A DNA stretch of 64,000 nt, from positions 1 to 64,000 of the forward strand of contig CANGJM010000005.1 of NCBI GenBank assembly GCA_947454525.1, given 5' to 3'. Made by a program: the position numbers and the translations under genes. This DNA comes from Flavobacteriales bacterium. GTDB taxonomy: Bacteria; Bacteroidota; Bacteroidia; Flavobacteriales_D; Crocinitomicaceae. Positions 5,816 through 11,091 of this stretch are shown here, one piece after another. Within the stretch, counting starts at the first letter, position 1, and each line of letters starts with the position of its first letter. Below the pieces are notes generated by a model. That model saw nothing but the letters and a program-made list of their open reading frames with translations, searched no databases and was not told the DNA's origin.

Positions 5816-8632
5816 ATGCCAAAAGACTTATCCATCAAATCGGTTCTGATTATCGGAAGCGGACCAATTGTTATCGGACAAGCCTGTGAGTTTGACTACG
5901 CAGGATCACAAGCCGCTCGTTCATTGAGAGAAGAAGGAATCGAAGTAACACTCATCAACTCGAATCCAGCGACAATTATGACGGATAAAGTGGTGGCAGA
6001 TAATGTGTATTTGCAACCCTTGGAGCCAGAAAGCATTATTGAGATTTTGAAAAATCACAAAATTGATGCGGTTTTACCAACAATGGGTGGACAAACAGCC
6101 TTGAATTTATGTATCCAATGTGATGAATTAGGTATCTGGGAGAAAAATGGGGTTCGCTTGATTGGTGTGGATATCGAAGCAATTGAAATTACGGAGAATC
6201 GTGAGGCTTTCCGTGAATTGATGTTGGAAATTGGCGTGCCAATGGCACCACAAAAAACGGCAAAATCATTCTTGGAAGGAAAAGAAATCGCACAAGAATT
6301 CGGTTTCCCACTTTGTATTCGTCCTTCGTATACCTTAGGCGGTTCTGGTGCTTCGATCTTACATGAACCAAAAGAATTTGACAACCTACTTGAGCGTGGA
6401 CTACAATTGTCTCCGATCCATGAAGTCATGATCGACAAAGCGCTATTAGGTTGGAAAGAATATGAATTAGAATTACTTCGCGACGCCAACGATAACGTAG
6501 TGATTATCTGTTCGATCGAAAATTTCGATCCAATGGGAATCCACACAGGAGATTCGATTACGGTTGCACCGGCAATGACCTTGTCGGATACGACTTTCCA
6601 AAAAATGCGTGATATGTCCATCAAAATGATGCGTTCTATCGGGAATTTCGCAGGTGGATGTAACGTCCAGTTTGCTGTTTCTCCTGATGATGCAGAGGAT
6701 ATTATTGCGATTGAAATCAATCCACGTGTATCGCGTTCGTCTGCACTTGCTTCTAAAGCGACTGGATATCCAATTGCGAAGATTGCCTCGAAATTGGCGA
6801 TCGGTTACCATTTGGATGAGTTGCAAAATCAAATCACGAAAACAACTTCGGCTTTATTCGAACCAACATTGGATTACGTAATCGTAAAAATCCCACGTTG
6901 GAACTTTAATAAATTCCCAGGAACAAATCGTCAACTTGGACTTCAAATGAAGTCGGTAGGAGAGGTGATGGGAATCGGACGTTCTTTCCAAGAGGCATTG
7001 CAGAAAGCATGTCAATCTTTGGAGATTAACCGCAACGGATTAGGTGCAGATGGAAAAGAATTGACCAACCAAGATGAAATTCTTCATTCACTAGAGTTTG
7101 CAAGTTGGAACCGTTTATTCCATATCTACGATGCGATTAAATTGGGAATTCCGTTTAAAAAAATCGTTGAAAAAACGAAAATCGATATTTGGTTCTTGAA
7201 ACAAATCGAAGACCTGATCAAATTAGAGCGCAGAATTGAGAAGTTCCATTTGGGTAGTATTCCAAAAGAATTATTGTTCGAAGCGAAACAAAAAGGATAT
7301 GCCGATCGTCAAGTTGCGCATTTATTGCGTTGTTTGGAATCTGAAGTATATACGAAGCGCACCGATATGGGCATCAAACGTGTGTACAAATTGGTAGATA
7401 CTTGTGCGGCGGAATTTGAAGCAAAGACACCTTATTACTATTCAACGTTTGAATACGAAAACGAAAGCATCGTTTCAGACCGTAAAAAAGTAATCGTATT
7501 AGGTTCTGGACCAAACCGAATCGGACAAGGAATCGAATTTGATTATTCATGTGTACATGGTGTATTGGCAGCGAAAGAATGTGGTTACGAAACCATCATG
7601 ATCAACTGTAATCCAGAAACTGTTTCTACGGATTTTGACACGGCGGATAAATTATACTTTGAACCTGTATTCTGGGAGCATATTTACGACATCATTATGC
7701 ACGAGAATCCAGTAGGAGTAATCGTTCAACTAGGTGGACAAACGGCATTAAAATTAGCAGAGAAACTTCAGCGTTATGGAATCCGTATTCTAGGAACGAG
7801 CTATGAAGCCCTCGATTTAGCAGAAGATCGTGGACGTTTCTCTAAATTACTAGAAGCGAACAATGTTCCTTTCCCTGAATATGGGGTAGTGGAAAGCGCG
7901 GAACAAGCACTGGAATTATCCGATAAACTAGGATTCCCGTTATTGGTTCGTCCTTCTTATGTGTTAGGTGGACAAAAAATGAAAATTGTCATCAACAAAG
8001 AAGAGTTGGAGCACCACGTAGTTGATATCATCAATGAGATGGGGAACAATCAAATTTTATTGGATCACTTCTTAGGTGGAGCAATTGAAGCAGAAGCAGA
8101 TGCCATTTGCGATGGTGAGAATGTGTACATCATTGGAATCATGCAGCACATTGAACCAGCAGGAATACACTCTGGAGATTCATATGCAGTATTGCCACCA
8201 TACAATTTAGGTGATTTTGTCATGACTCAAATTGAGGACATCACCAAGAAAATTGCCATCGAATTGAAAACAGTTGGATTATTGAATATCCAATTTGCCA
8301 TCAAGGACGATAAAGTATATGTAATTGAAGCCAATCCACGTGCGTCGCGTACCGTTCCATTCATTGCGAAAGCATACGATGAGCCTTATGTGAATTACGC
8401 AACGAAAGTCATGTTGGGCGAGAAAAAAGTTACAGACTTTAATTTCCAACCAAGAAAAGAAGGGTATGCAATTAAAATCCCTGTGTTCTCTTACGAGAAA
8501 TTCCCGGATGTGAAAAAAGAACTCGGACCAGAAATGAAGTCAACTGGTGAGGCAATTCGCTTTATCAAGGACTTGAAAGACCCATTCTTCACGAAAATCT
8601 ATTCCGAAAGAAATATGCATTTGTCTAGGTAA
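5816..8632 (+). CDS. carB: Carbamoyl-phosphate synthase large subunit, lacking the MGS domain
   Basis: The synthetase subunit makes carbamoyl phosphate from bicarbonate, ATP and glutamine-derived ammonia for pyrimidine and arginine synthesis. Both tandem ATP-grasp halves are present. The first begins VLIIGSGPIVIGQACEFDYAG, the second begins VIVLGSGPNRIGQGIEFDYS (around residue 560). ATP-site segments RPSYTLGGSGA and RPSYVLGGQKM are intact. The protein has 938 residues against about 1070 in E. coli. It ends shortly after LGPEMKSTGEA, so the C-terminal methylglyoxal-synthase-like allosteric domain is absent. The reading frame ends cleanly, and short CarB proteins are known in Flavobacteriia, so this is a natural form. 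carA is not in the window. Confidence 0.96.
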   Translation: MPKDLSIKSVLIIGSGPIVIGQACEFDYAGSQAARSLREEGIEVTLINSNPATIMTDKVVADNVYLQPLEPESIIEILKNHKIDAVLPTMGGQTALNLCIQCDELGIWEKNGVRLIGVDIEAIEITENREAFRELMLEIGVPMAPQKTAKSFLEGKEIAQEFGFPLCIRPSYTLGGSGASILHEPKEFDNLLERGLQLSPIHEVMIDKALLGWKEYELELLRDANDNVVIICSIENFDPMGIHTGDSITVAPAMTLSDTTFQKMRDMSIKMMRSIGNFAGGCNVQFAVSPDDAEDIIAIEINPRVSRSSALASKATGYPIAKIASKLAIGYHLDELQNQITKTTSALFEPTLDYVIVKIPRWNFNKFPGTNRQLGLQMKSVGEVMGIGRSFQEALQKACQSLEINRNGLGADGKELTNQDEILHSLEFASWNRLFHIYDAIKLGIPFKKIVEKTKIDIWFLKQIEDLIKLERRIEKFHLGSIPKELLFEAKQKGYADRQVAHLLRCLESEVYTKRTDMGIKRVYKLVDTCAAEFEAKTPYYYSTFEYENESIVSDRKKVIVLGSGPNRIGQGIEFDYSCVHGVLAAKECGYETIMINCNPETVSTDFDTADKLYFEPVFWEHIYDIIMHENPVGVIVQLGGQTALKLAEKLQRYGIRILGTSYEALDLAEDRGRFSKLLEANNVPFPEYGVVESAEQALELSDKLGFPLLVRPSYVLGGQKMKIVINKEELEHHVVDIINEMGNNQILLDHFLGGAIEAEADAICDGENVYIIGIMQHIEPAGIHSGDSYAVLPPYNLGDFVMTQIEDITKKIAIELKTVGLLNIQFAIKDDKVYVIEANPRASRTVPFIAKAYDEPYVNYATKVMLGEKKVTDFNFQPRKEGYAIKIPVFSYEKFPDVKKELGPEMKSTGEAIRFIKDLKDPFFTKIYSERNMHLSR

Positions 8633-8733
8633 GATTTTTCATCCTGCCTTTTTCTTTCCTTGCAAATCGTTCATCTGATGGCATGTCAAGAGATGTTATT
8701 GTCCTTTTTGTATATTAGTTGAGTTAGTACATC

Positions 8734-8786
8734 GTTTGGCTTACCAAACAGTAACTTACCAAACAGTAACTTACCATCTAGTAAGT
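8734..8786. repeat. Tandem 15-bp palindromic repeats upstream of the ATPase gene
   Basis: Three direct repeats of 15 bp at 8740-8754, 8755-8769 and 8770-8784: CTTACCAAACAGTAA twice, then CTTACCATCTAGTAA. Each unit is itself a dyad TTAC-N6-GTAA. The third extends to a perfect ACTTAC-N6-GTAAGT (8769-8786). A further hairpin, GTTTGG-CTTA-CCAAAC, covers 8734-8749. The array ends 5 bp before the -7 element at 8792, so it covers the place where a -33 box would be. This looks like a multi-site operator. Confidence 0.8.
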
Positions 8787-8791
8787 TTTTG

Positions 8792-8799
8792 TATATTTG
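8792..8799 (+). promoter_or_regulatory. -7 element of the ATPase gene
   Basis: TATATTTG, an exact consensus match, 15 nt before the ATG at 8815 and directly after the tandem repeats. Confidence 0.55.
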
Positions 8800-8814
8800 T
8801 CTTAAATTAGGCAA

Positions 8815-9969
8815 ATGCAACAAGAATTATCACCTTTTTTATTTGGGAGAACGGTCAGTGATCTAGGGTTTACCAATAGGGAAAAAGATTTGGATAAATT
8901 ATATAAAAATCTGACCCAAGGAATCAACACCATGCTTATTTCTCCTCGGCGTTGGGGTAAATCTTCATTGGTTGAGAAGTTGATTTTGGAATTGAAAACA
9001 AAAAATCCTACCATCAAAGTCGTGAATTTAGATTTGTTTTCTGTTTCAAGTGAAGAAGAGTTTTTGGAAATGTTTGCGCGAGAAGTGATTAAAGCATCGT
9101 CAACGATGTGGCAAGAATGGATACAGTCAGCCAAAGATTTCTTTAAACAATTGACACCTATCTTAACCGTTGGTATTGATCCAATGAATGATTTTAGTTT
9201 AGGGTTTGATTGGAATCAATTAAAAAAACACCGTTCTGAAATATTGGACTTGCCTGAAAAATTGGCCAATGATAAAAATTGCCGCTTTATTATTTGTTTA
9301 GATGAGTTTCAGAATTTGGCAACTTTTCACGAGTTTGAATTCCTAGAAAAATCTATGCGTGCCATTTGGCAAAGACAAAAATCAGTTTCCTATTGCCTGT
9401 ATGGAAGTAAACGACATATGATGACGGATATCTTCGATAATCCATCGAAGCCATTTTATAGATTTGGTGACATCATGTTGCTTCAAAAAATTAAACGAGA
9501 AAAATGGATTAGTTTCATCGTCGAAAGTTTTGCCAATACTAAAAAAGAAATTGCTCCAGATTTAGCTGAGTTAATACCAACTTTGATGCAAGATCATTCA
9601 TGGTATGTTCAGCAGTTGGCTCATTACACTTGGCAAAAAACAACGAAAAAAGCAACGAAAAGGGAAGTCCAACTGGCTTTTTCAGAATTGATAGATGCGA
9701 ATTCGCCCTTGTACATGCGCGAGGTGGAAGGATTGAGTGTTACGCAACTGAACTTTTTAAAAGCTGTTGCGAAAAAAGAGGATAAGTTAAGTAGCATGGA
9801 AATGCTGCTTAAATACCGATTGGGAACCTCTGCCAATGTTGTTAAGAACAAAGCGATACTTCTGAAAGCGGACATACTCGATGAATTTAATGGTAAATTG
9901 TCTTTTCTTGATCCAGCGTTTGAATATTGGTTTTTGAGGCAGTATTTTAGACAGGAAAAAATGATTTAA
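8815..9969 (+). CDS. AAA/STAND-type ATPase with C-terminal winged helix
   Basis: A 384-residue ATPase of the archaeal-ATPase (PF01637-like, MNS clade) type common in Bacteroidota. The Walker A motif is ISPRRWGKSSL with Lys49; the first Gly of the classical motif is replaced by Ser, as usual in this family. Walker B is FIICLDEFQN with Asp163 and Glu164. The last 80 residues (from LSVTQLNFLKAVAKK) look like a winged-helix domain ending in LDPAFEYWFLRQYF. The family's role is poorly known; members are often mobile or present in many copies. It stands alone between carB and a polyprenyl synthase gene, and the DNA looks more AT-rich than its neighbours. The operator-like repeats upstream suggest autoregulation by the winged helix (inference). 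Confidence 0.85.
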   Translation: MQQELSPFLFGRTVSDLGFTNREKDLDKLYKNLTQGINTMLISPRRWGKSSLVEKLILELKTKNPTIKVVNLDLFSVSSEEEFLEMFAREVIKASSTMWQEWIQSAKDFFKQLTPILTVGIDPMNDFSLGFDWNQLKKHRSEILDLPEKLANDKNCRFIICLDEFQNLATFHEFEFLEKSMRAIWQRQKSVSYCLYGSKRHMMTDIFDNPSKPFYRFGDIMLLQKIKREKWISFIVESFANTKKEIAPDLAELIPTLMQDHSWYVQQLAHYTWQKTTKKATKREVQLAFSELIDANSPLYMREVEGLSVTQLNFLKAVAKKEDKLSSMEMLLKYRLGTSANVVKNKAILLKADILDEFNGKLSFLDPAFEYWFLRQYFRQEKMI

Positions 9970-10104
9970 TCTTCCTTGTGGATGAATTTTAATTTCAATA
10001 GTCGAACAGTAGACCTGGTTCTTTATCACGATCTATTCGGAAAGAAATATCCATTTTCCCACGAAATTCCTCAGTTTCGGCGCTCATAACCTTAATGGAT
10101 TCCG

Positions 10105-10116: not shown

Positions 10117-11091
10117 ATGCAGAAGGTTGAGGACATTATGGCGCCAATTCAGTCAGAATTGACAACATTTGAAGCTTATTTTAAAGAGTCAATGAGATCC
10201 GATGTGGCCTTGCTGGACAAAGTCACTCAGTACGTGGTGAAGCGAAAAGGAAAGCAAATGCGTCCGATGTTCGTTTTTCTAACAGCGAAAATGTTGGGTG
10301 AAATCAATCAAGTGACCTACGATGCCACGACCTTGGTGGAACTCTTACACACAGCAACACTCGTACATGATGACGTGGTGGATGATGCCAACGAACGCCG
10401 AGGATTCTTTTCCGTCAATGCACTTTGGAAAAATAAAATCGCCGTCCTTGTAGGTGATTACATGCTTTCACGCATTCTGTTGCTTTCCATTGAGAAAGAA
10501 AACATCGCCTTGTTGGAAGTCGTTGCCCGCGCCGTTCGTGAAATGAGCGAAGGAGAACTTCTTCAGATTGAAAAAGCACGCGACCTGAATATTGATGAAG
10601 AAACCTATTTCGAAGTCATTCGGAAAAAGACCGCTTCACTTATTGCTACCTGCTGCGAGGCTGGAGCAATCAGTGTCCATGCGAACGCTGATCAACAAGA
10701 GAAAATGAGAAAATTCGGTGAGCTAATCGGACTTGCCTTTCAAATCAAAGACGACATTTTTGACTACGGAACAGGTGAACACATCGGAAAGCCAACAGGA
10801 ATTGATATCCGTGAACAAAAAATGACCTTGCCGTTGATCTACGTGATGAATCATTCTCCAAGTGAAATTCGTAAGGAATTAATGTACATCATGAAGAATG
10901 AATTCGACGTAACAGCACGAATTAAACGCGCCATTCAATTGGTCATTCAGTATGGTGGAATTCAATTCGCCACCCAAAAAATGGAAACTATTGCCAAGGA
11001 AGCACTCGAATTATTGGAGTCTTTCCCCGACAACGACGCAAAAAAATCGTTAATAGGATTGGTACATTACACAATGAATAGAGAGAAATGA
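10117..11091 (+). CDS. Polyprenyl diphosphate synthase
   Basis: A trans-isoprenyl diphosphate synthase that extends allylic diphosphates with isopentenyl diphosphate, probably to the C35-C40 chains used for menaquinone or other long isoprenoids. It has 324 residues. The first Asp-rich motif DDVVD (residues 85-89) follows LLHTATLVH, and the second, DDIFD (about 212-216), follows FQIK. The GKQMRP segment binds IPP. Chain length cannot be read with confidence. It is first in an operon with a MORN lipoprotein, dnaG and mscS; its stop overlaps the next start (ATGA). Confidence 0.93.
   Translation: MQKVEDIMAPIQSELTTFEAYFKESMRSDVALLDKVTQYVVKRKGKQMRPMFVFLTAKMLGEINQVTYDATTLVELLHTATLVHDDVVDDANERRGFFSVNALWKNKIAVLVGDYMLSRILLLSIEKENIALLEVVARAVREMSEGELLQIEKARDLNIDEETYFEVIRKKTASLIATCCEAGAISVHANADQQEKMRKFGELIGLAFQIKDDIFDYGTGEHIGKPTGIDIREQKMTLPLIYVMNHSPSEIRKELMYIMKNEFDVTARIKRAIQLVIQYGGIQFATQKMETIAKEALELLESFPDNDAKKSLIGLVHYTMNREK

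Follow-up and report, generated by a model that had tools for sequence, protein, structure and literature searches.

A palindrome array and its winged-helix ATPase gene as a probable single-gene mobile cassette of Bacteroidota

Results

Palindrome array, promoter and ATPase gene at the locus

The window analysed in this work is a stretch of 64,000 nucleotides of a Flavobacteriales genome, in which carB (5816-8632) and a prenyl synthase gene (10117-11091) are the neighbours of an ATPase gene preceded by a palindrome array. This array (8741-8785, forward strand) consists of three 15-bp repeats of the form (C)TTACN6GTAA, the cores of which are located at 8741-8754, 8756-8769 and 8771-8784, and it represents the probable left end of a mobile unit (see below). 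Copies 1 and 2 have the same sequence, the repeats recur at exactly 15 bp and copy 3 is longer (CTTAC-N6-GTAAG). Dyads with a 1-bp centre (GTAA-C-TTAC) alternate with dyads having an even centre, so that a half-site recurs every 7.5 bp. The first-pass annotation had described three 15-bp palindromic repeats just before a -7 element, and this arrangement was confirmed: the cores at 8741-8784 are followed by a -7 element of the Bacteroidota type, TATATTTG (8792-8799, forward strand), 7 bp past the array. The start codon of the ATPase gene, at position 8815, lies 3’ of both, and from their position at the promoter the repeats would be expected to block or to activate transcription.

The genome (2.8 Mb) contains 61 single occurrences of TTACN6GTAA on each strand, as compared to 133 for a reversed control pattern. 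Lone sites are therefore present at background level and are uninformative, for which reason the raw genome-wide count was dropped as evidence, the tandem array being the meaningful feature. A second cluster of TTACN6GTAA sites spaced by 15 bp was not present among the places listed for this genome. Elsewhere in the genome (contig C10:112459-112640), TTACTTCAATGTAA occurs three times at a spacing of exactly 84 bp, which is probably an unrelated tandem repeat.

The ATPase gene (8815-9969, forward strand) specifies a protein of 384 aa with an AAA+/STAND core covering approximately residues 1-300, a Walker A motif (SPRRWGKSSL) and a Walker B motif (IICLDEFQ), and is present as a single copy in its genome. 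Its earlier description as a lone gene was borne out, the 384-aa ORF standing by itself at loci which share no conserved neighbour. In the AlphaFold model (pLDDT 88), a winged helix is formed by residues 309-364, with a recognition helix at 339-351, and is followed by a C-terminal helix at 367-378.

Relationship of the protein to ATPases of known structure

A profile search of the PDB retrieved as clear sequence relatives only the archaeal ATPases SSO1545 (2fna, E 2e-20) and PABY2304 (2qen, E 5e-14), which share 17-19% identity with the window protein and which match its fold over the full length, including the AAA+ core, the lid and the winged helix (VIA-align Z 25.4-25.6 over 331-332 residues). 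The PF01637 (ATPase_2) score of the window protein, 32.1 bits, is just under the gathering cut-off of 33.2; among its homologues two are above this cut-off (L054, 37.9; L088, 41.5) and another one is below it (L031, 26.1). The next structural matches are Orc1/Cdc6 proteins (Z 16-20.5, with 1w5t, 2qby and 2v1u at 18.5-20.5), and further matches were obtained to TnsC (Z 15-17) and to NLR/CED-4 proteins. By sequence, Orc1/Cdc6 is represented by a marginal local match (2qby, E 0.53 over 40 residues), and the Pfam search of the window protein did not return an Orc/Cdc6 family. The window protein is thus of an ATPase_2-type fold, followed in likeness by Orc1/Cdc6, and is by sequence not an Orc1/Cdc6 protein. 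The ATPase, being the sole ORF of the unit, gave no match to a nuclease or recombinase family. PADLOC returned only partial matches (best E 5e-5) in the P-loop region, and no membership of a defence family.

Tandem palindrome arrays accompany the ATPase family

A match to the ATPase was found in 14 of 60 relatives. Once the upstream regions had been oriented, a tandem palindrome array was apparent in almost all of them, the sequences differing between homologues: besides TTAC..GTAA, the array types include GGTATAATACC, GTTAGTAAC, GCGTTACGC and others, the repeats recurring every 15 or 14 bp. The set of homologues was extended to approximately 230 across the Bacteroidota, from which 228 non-redundant loci were scored for arrays. 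The alternation of dyads is also found in the arrays of the family, a half-site being repeated in alternating orientation every 7-7.5 bp. A combined tandem-plus-palindrome score of at least 0.70 was reached by 64 of 93 upstream regions of homologues, as against 2 of 210 regions upstream of flanking genes, and the array score exceeded the 99th percentile of shuffled sequence for 166 of the 228 homologues. Furthermore, TANNTTTG is found in the 75 nt preceding the gene for 156 of the 228 homologues, compared to 72 of 401 control genes, an enrichment which indicates that the array is usually positioned on or beside the promoter. The first-pass annotation had regarded array-less homologues at the same locus in all relatives as an outcome contrary to its reading; instead, most genomes of the genus are without the gene, and the homologues carry arrays. 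The array is therefore a property of the ATPase gene family and not a local curiosity.

Twenty genomes contain two or more copies, the arrays of which differ wherever they can be called, the corresponding proteins being at most 56% identical. An exclusion of like copies from the same genome is not claimed here: the identity comparison is weak, with 20% versus 40% of pairs above 35% identity, and the numbers are small.

Three loci (L029, L046 and L247) contain a second palindrome array immediately after the ATPase stop codon, the unit being bracketed by arrays; such an arrangement could have arisen by insertion beside an older copy, or the unit could exist in a form with two ends. In one Bacteroidota genus (g77; loci L124-L130, L128 excepted), the array and a module of ATPase_2 and winged helix are found within a single ORF of 1,300-1,900 aa. 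At two of these loci (L125 and L127) the fusion partners of the module are TIR and STAND/NACHT-type domains, resulting in a defence-like architecture, and the fusions of this genus may indicate that the module can serve as a sensor.

These architectures bring in an explanation by which the ATPase would be a host-integrated local regulator, i.e., a STAND-type sensor or defence switch maintained by selection, with the array serving as an operator only. The location of the array on the promoter is in accordance with such a role, as is the fusion, in one genus, to TIR and NACHT/STAND domains that are typical of defence. Ordinary members of the family, however, possess neither an effector domain nor a conserved neighbour, their similarity to PADLOC entries is weak and partial, and the duplications found at their flanks (see below) would be left unexplained. 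We consider this explanation to be unlikely.

Covariation between the winged helix and the array half-site

For 87 loci with clean 15-bp arrays, 312 columns of the protein alignment were ranked according to their covariation with the bases of the half-site. For half-site positions 1-2, columns 339, 338 and 340 occupy ranks 1-3 of 312, and for positions 4 and 5 column 344 ranks first of 312; all four columns fall where the predicted recognition helix begins or one turn further on. With regard to residues 338-339 and half-site positions 1-2, TP is paired with AT in 26 of 26 cases, SS with TA in 35 of 36 and TS with TT in 20 of 24. Similarly, K344 is accompanied by C or T at position 5 in all 45 instances and R344 by A in 14 of 15, and this holds in all three half-site backgrounds.

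When a tree was constructed from residues 5-300 only, so that the winged helix was left out, the half-site positions required at least 11-13 changes, and the covariation is therefore not the effect of a single clade. When disjoint nearest pairs were compared, site and residue changed together (p 3e-5 and 4e-6), as was also the case for some other columns. In this pair-based control column 344 takes second rank and other single columns do better than 338-340, which means that part of the association is due to shared descent. The window protein, with T338, S339, A340 and K344, and its half-sites, TTAC(C/T), are consistent with the code. These sequence correlations make it very probable that each array is read by the winged helix of its own ATPase, which is perhaps an autoregulator at that array.

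Flanking duplications and the ends of the inserted unit

Similarity between the two flanks of a locus was assessed against a null distribution derived from cross-locus flank pairs. Own-locus similarity exceeded the 99th percentile of this null at 37 of 218 loci, where approximately 2 were expected, as compared to 7 of 210 in a distant-window control. Target duplications of approximately 25-460 bp, very variable in length, thus flank the array and gene at many unrelated sites, many of the loci being derived from metagenome assemblies. Approximately five in six loci are without a significant flank duplication, which could be due to the age of these copies or to their arrival by another route.

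The positions of the duplicates relative to the unit are informative as to its ends. At 12 of the 35 loci with a significant duplication, as compared to 1.5 expected (p ~1e-8), the start of the downstream copy falls within -6 to +12 nt of the stop codon, and the left copy ends exactly at the start of the array at six loci (L054, L066, L025, L256, L040 and L029). Empty sites in relatives contain the target once. For one of these six loci (L256) the empty site of a relative (L285) is available, which contains one copy of the target of approximately 100 bp, the element being approximately 1,180 bp in length; a search for an empty site corresponding to L109 gave no usable one. Of the 12 elements in which the right end is defined, 11 are 1,181-1,300 bp in length. 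At some loci the duplicate overlaps the stop codon, implying that the latter may be supplied by the target. It is well supported by these flank comparisons that array and ORF would insert as a unit with target duplication, and the junctions support the array and the stop codon as the best-defined left and right ends, respectively, of this putative unit.

Terminal inverted repeats were not detected (own left/right scores 5.9 versus 6.0 for cross-pairs), and the unit contains no transposase, the ATPase being its only ORF. Neither a conserved neighbour nor a partner gene was found among 588 flanking ORFs of related loci, and beyond the coding sequence there is no conserved DNA motif at the right end. 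Bursts of multiple copies were likewise not seen within genomes. A plasmid or phage origin was rejected, matches being present in only 3 plasmids and 2 phage records.

In genus g350, the ATPase units of L263 and L276 are situated at a repeated terminator element, AAATGGGTTAYGAAA...CATAACCCAT, which is also present at other genes of the genus. The duplications at these two loci are therefore ambiguous, and the terminator element is possibly a preferred landing place. Candidate solo arrays in this genus were discarded, the apparent matches being the repeated terminator and not arrays.

The main rival to a mobile unit is passive insertion by host repair, in which an ordinary autoregulated ATPase gene spreads horizontally and is inserted through template switching or illegitimate recombination of the host, events that leave the duplications behind, its sharp ends being the result of selection for the shortest functional unit. 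The unit indeed has no recombinase and no terminal inverted repeats, the very variable lengths of the duplications are a possible outcome of template switching during repair, copies residing in the same genome are divergent and most loci are without a duplication. Against this stand the clustering of downstream copies around the stop codon and the left junction, which coincides exactly with the array at six loci unrelated to each other, in addition to the consideration that donor flanks should travel along in passive copying. We regard passive insertion as a serious possibility, albeit one with less than an even chance.

The cassette might also be a non-autonomous insertion sequence, moved in trans by a host transposase of the IS1634/IS1549 family type. 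IS1549 and IS1634 are reported to generate direct repeats of 8-514 bp upon insertion (PMC2266710), a range like that observed here. Among 13 host genomes tested, however, 9 (including G000, G036 and G351) gave no IS1634-family match and only 2 had a match above the curated cut-off, and such an enzyme would find no terminal inverted repeats on the cassette. Transposition in trans by an IS1634 transposase was rejected on account of its being missing from most of the host genomes tested, and we consider it highly improbable.

Insertion at the window locus

At the locus itself, the carB 3’ end is present a second time in degenerate form (10019-10056, forward strand), shortly after the ATPase gene. 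This copy, which was missed in the first-pass annotation, is continuous with the sequence that precedes the prenyl synthase gene. It matches the segment 8585-8622 (forward strand) within the intact carB 3’ end, the two representing the right and left copies of the target duplication, and this duplication is short and decayed (82% over 38 bp). Alignment to an empty site suggests that weaker carB similarity may reach back towards the ATPase stop codon. The inserted segment extends at most from 8633 to 10018 (forward strand), this segment being missing from the empty site of G015, and by analogy with the other loci the unit proper probably spans approximately 8738 to 9970.

Two relatives, G002 and the closest relative G015 (prenyl synthase 99% identical), have no ATPase gene between carB and the prenyl synthase gene. 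The gene is found at the same place in G036, which is more distant than G015 (flank DNA 83% versus 90%). As the unit is present in the distant genome and not in the nearer one, G015 may have lost it cleanly, e.g., by recombination between the duplicates.

Discussion

The locus is best explained, with a probability which we estimate at roughly 0.68, as one copy of a widespread single-gene mobile cassette of the Bacteroidota, approximately 1.2 kb in length, which would consist of a promoter array and an Orc1/Cdc6/STAND-type (ATPase_2-like) winged-helix ATPase. In the first step of the proposed mechanism, the winged helix would bind the half-sites of its own array, with residues 338-340 and 344 setting the sequence and with codes that are specific to subfamilies; covariation lends this step strong support. 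Considering the position of the array, ATPase molecules lined up along the half-sites, which alternate in orientation every 7-7.5 bp, would then cover the -33 region and thereby autoregulate the gene, probably by repression that is modulated by ATP. The third step, supported by the duplications, would be the entry of array and ORF as a unit into new sites with duplication of approximately 25-460 bp of target, the copy in the window having gone into the carB 3’ end. Finally, and tentatively, the ATPase-array complex may itself contribute to mobility, for example as a minimal initiator-origin pair through which DNA is locally opened and copied, the joining being left to repair or replication by the host. 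The earlier guess of an autoregulated accessory or selfish unit is well supported by the phylum-wide association of array and gene, the covariation, the empty sites of G015 and G002 and the duplications; the alternative guess of a stress-response switch found no support.

Several known systems resemble the proposed cassette in part. The archaeal ATPase_2 proteins SSO1545 and PABY2304 (PF01637) share its fold over the full length (Z 25), differing by their low sequence identity, and the papers searched yielded no account of self-recognised arrays or of insertion in their case. Archaeal Orc1/Cdc6 initiators likewise join an AAA+ domain to a winged helix, and the anatomy of the locus is that of an initiator gene beside its binding sites, as an Orc1/Cdc6 gene often adjoins its own inverted-repeat binding sites (origin recognition boxes). 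In contrast to these initiators, the unit has a 14/15-bp array overlapping a promoter and no evidence of an origin, and it shows a patchy distribution on bacterial chromosomes and insertion with target duplication. TnsC/IstB-type transposition ATPases are comparable in being DNA-binding AAA+ proteins; they nevertheless work with an adjacently encoded transposase, and none is present at the window locus.

The STAND regulators MalT and IniR also combine a P-loop STAND ATPase with a DNA-binding domain, and the ATPase domain of IniR has been set beside SSO1545 (PMC5760070). These regulators possess large sensor domains and control other operons, whereas the only recognised target of the cassette would be its own promoter. 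With respect to mobile DNA, the target-site duplication is that of an insertion sequence or DNA transposon, whereas a transposase or recombinase and terminal inverted repeats are absent. IS1634 and IS1549, which resemble the cassette in producing long direct repeats of variable length, encode a DDE transposase; the cassette has only the ATPase and no terminal inverted repeats. For the long duplications of IS1549/IS1634, which those of the cassette recall, a survey of 2008 (PMC2266710) noted the lack of any proposed mechanistic model. No earlier description of the association between array and ATPase was found in the papers searched, which were mostly outside subscription journals, and what we call new is the combination of a recombinase-free single-gene unit, a self-recognised array and long target duplications.

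A further-reaching proposal is that the 1.2-kb cassette represents a new class of mobile element, in which the sole protein, an Orc1/Cdc6-like ATPase, would recognise the array at the left end and, with host replication or repair enzymes, drive its own copying with long and variable target duplications and without a transposase. We put this forward as a tentative possibility. If passive insertion were instead true, the finding would reduce to a variant of an autoregulated accessory gene. If the proposal is right, an initiator-like ATPase together with its own binding array would suffice for a mobile unit outside the recombinase and transposase classes. The covariation would provide a readable protein-DNA code for a winged helix of the STAND/Orc type, with natural specificity variants that are directly testable, and the proposal, if right, would suggest a function for the ATPase_2 proteins, which are widespread and have received little study.
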